Shown piece after piece: positions 39,937 to 41,537 of a stretch of DNA of 64,000 nucleotides. This stretch comes from Pirellulales bacterium (GTDB lineage: Bacteria; Planctomycetota; Planctomycetia; Pirellulales; Thermoguttaceae). A program made the translations under genes and the position numbers. Location of the stretch: positions 1-64,000 of the forward strand of contig JAFGRD010000009.1 in the NCBI GenBank assembly GCA_016935315.1, written 5' to 3'. Position 1 is the stretch's first letter; every line of letters begins with the position of its first letter. The notes beneath the pieces are model-generated. The model was not told the DNA's origin. It saw nothing but the letters and a program-made list of their open reading frames with translations, and made no database searches.

Positions 39937-40797
39937 GTGCGATTGCCCCGGATGAAGCGGCGACGATTCCTGAAGCTGGCCGGCGGCTCGACGCTGGTGG
40001 CCGGCGCGGCCCTGTTCGGCTATACCTGGCGAATCGAACCGCATTGGATCGAAGTGGTGCGGCGCAAGCTGCCCATCGCCGGGCTGCCCGATTCGCTGCT
40101 GGGCCGAACGCTCGTGCAGATCAGCGACCTGCACGTCGGCCCGATCGTCGACGAGGACTACATCATCGGGGCGGTCGAGCAGGTCTCGTCGCTGGACGCC
40201 GATCTGCTGGTGCTCAGCGGCGACCTGATTACCTATCGCGGCCCGCGGCAGATCGATCAAACCGTGCGCGTGCTCGGGCGTCTTCAGCCCGGGCGGCTGG
40301 CCACGCTGGCCGTACTGGGCAACCACGACTACGGCCATGGCTGGTCGCAGGCGGGCGTGGCCGACGAGCTGGCGGGCCGGCTGGAAGCGTTGGGGATGAC
40401 GATCCTACGCAACCGGCTACAGGACGTGCAGGGGCTGCAAGTCTTGGGCATGGACGACCTCTGGGCGGGACGCTTTGAGGCGGAAACCGTGTTGGGGCAG
40501 CTCGATCGGCAGCGGGCCGCGATCGCCGTGTGTCACAATCCCGACGCCGTCGACCGGCCCGAGTGGTCGGGCTATCGGGGCTGGATTCTCAGCGGCCACA
40601 CGCACGGCGGCCAGTGCAAGCCGCCCTGGCTGGCTCCCCCGCGTCTGCCGGTCCGCAACAAGCGATACAGCGCCGGCGAGATCGATTTGTACGACGGCAG
40701 GCGCCTTTACATCAATCGCGGCCTGGGATATGTCCGCCGCGTGCGTTTCAACGCCCGTCCGGAGATCACCGTATTCACGCTCACCCGCCCGGCGTAG
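39937..40797 (+). CDS. Tat-exported calcineurin-like metallophosphoesterase
   Basis: 286 residues. The N-terminus has a twin-arginine-like 'KRRRFLKLAGG' followed by a hydrophobic stretch, as in YkuE-type enzymes. All five metallophosphoesterase blocks are visible: DLH (near 66), GDLI (near 94), GNHDYGH (near 128) and GHTHGGQ (near 221). The substrate is unknown; relatives act on UDP-diacylglucosamine or other phosphoesters. Starts at GTG 39937 or ATG 39952 are both possible. Its TAG stop lies inside the first unit of a 15-nt tandem repeat. It begins 9 nt after the M23 gene, so the two form an operon. Confidence 0.85.
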   Translation: MRLPRMKRRRFLKLAGGSTLVAGAALFGYTWRIEPHWIEVVRRKLPIAGLPDSLLGRTLVQISDLHVGPIVDEDYIIGAVEQVSSLDADLLVLSGDLITYRGPRQIDQTVRVLGRLQPGRLATLAVLGNHDYGHGWSQAGVADELAGRLEALGMTILRNRLQDVQGLQVLGMDDLWAGRFEAETVLGQLDRQRAAIAVCHNPDAVDRPEWSGYRGWILSGHTHGGQCKPPWLAPPRLPVRNKRYSAGEIDLYDGRRLYINRGLGYVRRVRFNARPEITVFTLTRPA

Positions 40798-40865
40798 TCT
40801 TAGCCGGCGTGTAGTCTGAACTGGCGTTGTCTGAACCGGCGTAGCCCGGACCGGCGTAGCCCGGA
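40789..40865 (+). repeat. Five-copy ~15-nt tandem repeat across the stop codon
   Basis: Units begin at 40789, 40804, 40821, 40836 and 40851. The last two are identical CCGGCGTAGCCCGGA; the others are variants, unit 2 being 17 nt. The stop codon of the phosphoesterase (40795-40797) is in unit 1. Confidence 0.75.
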
Positions 40866-40931
40866 CGGACGACGGATGCTGTTGCCCCCTGTTTGTGCTG
40901 GTCGGGAATGGCCTTCGCCGGCAACCACGCC

Positions 40932-40960
40932 TTTACAGGGCCGGCCCGATCGGACAGAAT
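40932..40960 (+). promoter_or_regulatory. Promoter candidate for greA
   Basis: TTTACA at 40932-40937, 17 nt, CAGAAT at 40955-40960. Transcription would start near 40967, only a few bases before the large terminator hairpin at 40973-41035. Confidence 0.5.
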
Positions 40961-40972
40961 GGGGGACGTTCA

Positions 40973-41035
40973 CCACGACCGTTCGCCACGGCCATGCCAG
41001 CGGCATGGGGCCGGGTGAAGGTCGCGGTTTTTTTT
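40973..41035 (+). terminator. Intrinsic terminator/attenuator in the greA leader
   Basis: A near-perfect long hairpin: CCACGACC (40973-40980) with GGTCGCGG (41020-41027), TTCGCC (40982-40987) with GGTGAA (41014-41019), CGGCC (40989-40993) with GGCCG (41009-41013), ATGCC (40994-40998) with GGCAT (41002-41006), loop AGC. About 23 of 24 pairs form. Eight T residues follow at once (41028-41035). It ends 22 nt before the greA start. Confidence 0.8.
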
Positions 41036-41057
41036 CGCCCTCGTTGGAGAACCCGAC

Positions 41058-41537
41058 ATGTCCGAACGGATTCCCATGACCCGCACCGGCTACGACAAGC
41101 TCAAGGCCGATCTCGACCACCTGCACACCGTCGAGCTGCCCAAGATCCTCGAGCGTCTGGCCAAGGCCCGGGCGGAAGGCGATCTGAGTGAGAACGCCGA
41201 GTATCACGGTGCCCAGGAGAGCCGCGGGCTGATGGAGGCGCGGATCAATGTGCTGCGGGACAAGCTGGCCAGGGCCGTGCTGATCGACGCCTCGAAGCTG
41301 CCGAAGGACGAAGCGGGCTTCGGCAGCACCGTGACCGTCAAGGACCTCGAATTCGACGACGAGGAACAGTTCACGCTGGTCGGGGCGGGCGAGGAGGACT
41401 ACGACGCGGGCAAGATCCTCTTCACCAGCCCGCTGGCGCAAGGGCTGGTCGGCAAGAAGGTGGGCGATCGCGTGGAAATCGATGTGCCGCGAGGGACACT
41501 GAGATTCGAGATCCTCGCGATTGACTTTCCGGAATGA
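41058..41537 (+). CDS. greA: Transcription elongation factor GreA
   Basis: 159 residues, the normal GreA length. GreA enters the RNA polymerase secondary channel and stimulates cleavage of backtracked RNA. The N-terminal coiled coil carries the acidic tip signature '[16 protein letters not shown]' (residues 39-54) with the catalytic acidic pair, and the C-terminal FKBP-like domain ends in 'RFEILAIDF'. TTGGAGAA at 41044-41051 is a good ribosome site. The gene sits directly behind a promoter and a strong terminator, suggesting control by attenuation. Confidence 0.96.

Follow-up and report, generated by a model that had tools for sequence, protein, structure and literature searches.

In the Pirellulales bacterium considered here, greA, encoding a transcription elongation factor that rescues RNA polymerase, is very probably attenuated by a promoter-proximal intrinsic terminator. 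In the window (the whole stretch of 64,000 nucleotides that was analysed, from contig JAFGRD010000009.1), a promoter-like site, a strong hairpin and a run of Ts stand in this order directly before the greA start codon. Sequence and comparison with relatives show elements that resemble a promoter and a terminator, the order in which they stand, their conservation at greA and the pairing of the stem; many transcripts would probably stop early and yield a short RNA, and expression of greA would thereby be kept low.

Architecture of the greA leader

The greA reading frame occupies positions 41058–41537 of the forward strand, and its product carries the acidic tip GDLSENAEY and both Pfam Gre domains (E 1e-26 and 4e-25). 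Upstream on the same strand, a promoter assigned by consensus only consists of a −35 hexamer TTTACA (40932–40937), a 17-nt spacer and a −10 hexamer CAGAAT (40955–40960). An intrinsic terminator lies between it and the start codon: a hairpin of 57 nt and 24 pairs with a few bulges or mismatches (40972–41028), followed by eight Ts (41028–41035), which 22 nt separate from the ATG (41058). Folded alone, the hairpin reaches −37.6 kcal/mol, and the segment 40961–41057 folds at −51.3 against −36.9 ± 3.5 for its shuffles (z −4.1; 0/200). A probable Shine-Dalgarno sequence, GGAG, follows the terminator at 41046–41049. From the positions of the −10 hexamer and the T-run, RNA is predicted to start near 40967, and a terminated leader of about 67 nt would span 40967–41033. 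The hexamers with their spacing, the eight Ts and the distance to greA agree with the first-pass annotation, which had also rightly placed a strong hairpin before the T-run, although at a slightly different size (55 nt, with about 23 of 24 pairs).

Our built-in terminator scan omitted this hairpin. It was recovered by a custom scan, in which the stretch 5′ of each T-run is folded and which also recovers the GraL terminator of E. coli, 131–102 nt 5′ of greA and with the divergent dacB upstream. No Rfam family matched anywhere in the window at gathering scores.

The nearest upstream gene in the window encodes a calcineurin-like phosphoesterase (39937–40797, forward strand) and ends 260 nt 5′ of greA. 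The custom scan found no intrinsic terminator in this gap besides the greA hairpin, and since the gene is co-directional, the hairpin may act as its terminator as well. At 40789–40866, between this gene and the greA promoter, lie short tandem repeats with a unit of about 15 bp (ACCGGCGTAGCCCGG); their exact 16-mer is absent elsewhere in the genome, and we rejected them as part of the element.

Within the 7.1-Mb genome, the pattern TTTACA-N16-18-NANAAT occurs four times and its reversed control once. When six Ts are required 40–70 nt further 3′ (a range reset once, the initial 30–60 having excluded the greA site itself), only the greA copy is left, and the reversed pattern gives none. Nor is the hairpin a dispersed repeat, its next match in the genome being just 20 nt long.

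Conservation at greA across the order

A pattern that holds no information on greA or on a hairpin, TTTACA-N16-18-NANAAT-N30-60-T6, was used to search 196 genomes of the order. Among GC-rich genomes, 38 of the 43 distinct matches that were fetched sit 18–128 nt 5′ of a greA reading frame; the AT-rich genomes of the family, where matches arise by chance according to the control, were left out of this count. The other five matches lie away from greA (loci L185, L188, L191, L192 and L246).

Eighty greA loci from named genomes were joined by further ones from the same order, giving 125 distinct loci. TTTACA, a gap of 16–18 nt, a CANAAT-like hexamer, a GC hairpin and a T-run precede greA in many of these relatives. 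The hexamers and spacing of the window recur in a set of 76 greA leaders, which includes loci picked by the pattern, with TTTACA in 68 and a 17-nt spacer in 60. The arrangement is more conserved at greA than elsewhere in the related genomes: promoter-terminator pairs were called in 59 of the 125 greA leaders, including weak calls (e.g., L018, L023, L034, L103 and L121), as against 24 in 1.29 Mb (both strands) of other sequence from the same loci, where their density per 300 nt is about 85 times lower.

A GreA tree with SH-aLRT support covers 124 loci, of which 60 have a promoter followed by a terminator, 14 a terminator alone and 50 neither element. Within it, one clade of 34 (SH-aLRT 99) is devoid of such pairs, all 60 falling within the other 90 rows. 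In many loci of this clade (e.g., L024, L031, L040 and L051), greA is immediately preceded by a conserved ORF with a terminal CRSCGRLLY zinc ribbon, and there is no leader terminator. Since this ORF mostly lies a short distance from greA, the latter probably belongs to an operon. The nearest relatives of the window are mixed, two lacking the terminator (L001 and L002) and three (L003, L005 and L007) having a tRNA-Ala (CGC) gene 5′ of the terminator and greA; in these three, promoter, tRNA, terminator and greA may lie on one shared transcript. Beyond the order, a hairpin with a T-run occurs 5′ of greA in another order of the same class (L208, L209 and L215–L217) and is mostly absent in other classes of the phylum. 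Five records titled Nealsonbacteria or Kuenenia (L006, L025, L052, L058 and L063) hold GreA of this planctomycete group and are probably mislabelled or contaminated bins.

The first-pass annotation had proposed to compare planctomycete greA leaders for covarying stems, and this comparison found the pairing kept while the letters differ. The stem resembles GCGGYCTCC...GGAGGCCGC. Across nine pairs in 41 leaders, 88.6% of cells are standard pairs, and sliding the stem by 1–3 columns lowers pairing to 41–54%; as the 41 sequences were selected by hairpin calls, some pairing is to be expected from that choice. In 34 cells both sides are changed, against 11.4 in shuffles, which shows that the position of the stem is kept while its letters change. 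The hairpin of the window exceeds those of its relatives in both length and stability.

Alternative roles of the hairpin

That the hairpin is a mere 3′ terminator of the phosphoesterase gene, with greA transcribed from elsewhere, would fit the shared strand and the 260-nt gap that holds no other intrinsic terminator, but we consider it unlikely. Such a terminator would follow a co-directional gene with no promoter between, whereas in the window a promoter-like site intervenes 5′ of the hairpin, and the 22 nt 3′ of the T-run are too short for a second promoter. The same order is kept at greA beside unrelated and even divergent neighbours. In three loci, where the nearest upstream genes encode a 4Fe-4S ferredoxin (L077), CheX (L150) and an ABC ATPase (L084) by Pfam, a promoter-like site and then the terminator stand between the two divergent genes, so the hairpin cannot be the terminator of that neighbour; the promoter of L084 is of a different sequence, TTGACG-17-TACGAT. 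It is because the promoter-then-terminator layout persists beside divergent genes that a plain 3′ terminator is inadequate as an explanation. Terminators in general also have other stems in these loci, GGYCY being found in the 5′ arm of 42 of 61 greA leader terminators and of 10 of 132 others. Further arrangements were seen as well: in L112, a divergent enolase gene adjoins the terminator and no promoter was called, and L041 has separate terminators, one before the promoter and one after. In L103, a gene for a DksA/TraR-type zinc-finger protein adjoins greA divergently; in E. coli, DksA and GreA compete for the same RNA polymerase channel (PMC6829880).

The position of the hairpin at the very 5′ end of the greA mRNA would also suit a stabilising structure that does not terminate at all. 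The run of mostly 6–9 Ts directly after the stem in most greA leaders makes this highly improbable. Attenuation by early termination, as the first-pass annotation had read the arrangement, is instead supported by the order conserved at greA, including next to divergent genes, and by the match with GraL and with the greA leaders predicted in other bacteria.

Within attenuation, a further question is whether the terminator responds to anything. It could be a fixed, unregulated partial terminator that just sets greA low, or one whose small RNA product acts in trans, in either case without GreA feedback. This has somewhat less than an even chance in our judgement, and is in keeping with the leaders themselves, in which no sensor, antiterminator or leader peptide was found: pairing of a sought antiterminator was no better than in shuffles, and just 1 of 76 leaders contained a complete ORF that begins with ATG and has at least four codons, there being no room for a leader peptide because usually only a few nucleotides come before the hairpin (predicted median, 7 nt). 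Against it stand the conservation of the element specifically at greA across the order and the precedent of GreA-dependent termination in E. coli.

A proposed model for greA attenuation

In the model that we propose for attenuation, RNA polymerase would start near 40967 and make the hairpin and U-run within about 70 nt. Part of the transcripts would stop at the U-run, yielding the short leader RNA (38–56 nt in greA leaders, predicted interquartile range), and the remainder would continue into greA, the ribosome site of which is located 3′ of the terminator. As so little RNA precedes the hairpin that neither a leader peptide nor an antiterminator fits, it is probably the state of RNA polymerase itself that determines the readthrough fraction. 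GreA would be the likeliest regulator, abundant GreA leading to more termination as at GraL; by this analogy, GreA-dependent feedback on the planctomycete leader is a plausible hypothesis, held with rather less than even confidence. Equally tentative is the broader idea that planctomycetes, independently of E. coli, evolved a minimal, sensor-free greA attenuator in which GreA raises termination in its own leader, early greA terminators being a recurrent solution, read by RNA polymerase, that would keep GreA constant.

Comparison with known systems

Attenuation in the greA leader is already known in E. coli and has been predicted for Proteobacteria and Firmicutes; the planctomycetes are a new lineage, without a visible antiterminator. 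Our findings suggest that early termination at greA is common beyond those two phyla. The self-control of GreA in E. coli is puzzling, as it requires the leader and active GreA and yet fails in vitro. Unrelated leaders of the same layout, with many natural variants and one clade lacking them, offer a means of finding out which features are indispensable to such a leader.

For Enterobacteria and Bacilli, Naville and Gautheret (2010) predicted greA-leaders that are alike in having a 5′ terminator before greA as a recurrent attenuator. They differ by the clear antiterminators reported for them, of which none is detectable in the planctomycete leaders, where there is little room for one; the main text of that study does not mention planctomycetes. 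In the rimP-leader, a conserved short terminator stem without an antiterminator likewise precedes transcription-machinery genes (Naville and Gautheret, 2010), although the gene is a different one and the 5′ arm is G-rich there and pyrimidine-rich in planctomycete greA leaders.

The closest counterpart is GraL of E. coli, where about two-thirds of transcripts stop at the leader terminator, termination rises with GreA and needs its residue D41, and the feedback is seen in vivo only and not in vitro (PMC6829880). The RNA and the feedback have been measured there; for the planctomycete leader they are a prediction and a hypothesis, respectively. The promoter is different, no sequence kinship is seen, and the distance from hairpin to ATG is 29 nt here as against about 100 nt in E. 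coli. The 5′ segment before the hairpin is 19 nt in GraL against a predicted median of 7 nt in the planctomycete leaders. As the first-pass annotation had supposed in invoking E. coli, the layout and the predicted RNA length nevertheless match: before the same gene stand a promoter, a short 5′ segment, a GC hairpin and a T-run, the short RNAs measure 37–59 nt in E. coli and a predicted 38–56 nt in the planctomycete leaders, and the divergent dacB upstream of the E. coli gene has its parallel in the divergent neighbours of several planctomycete loci.
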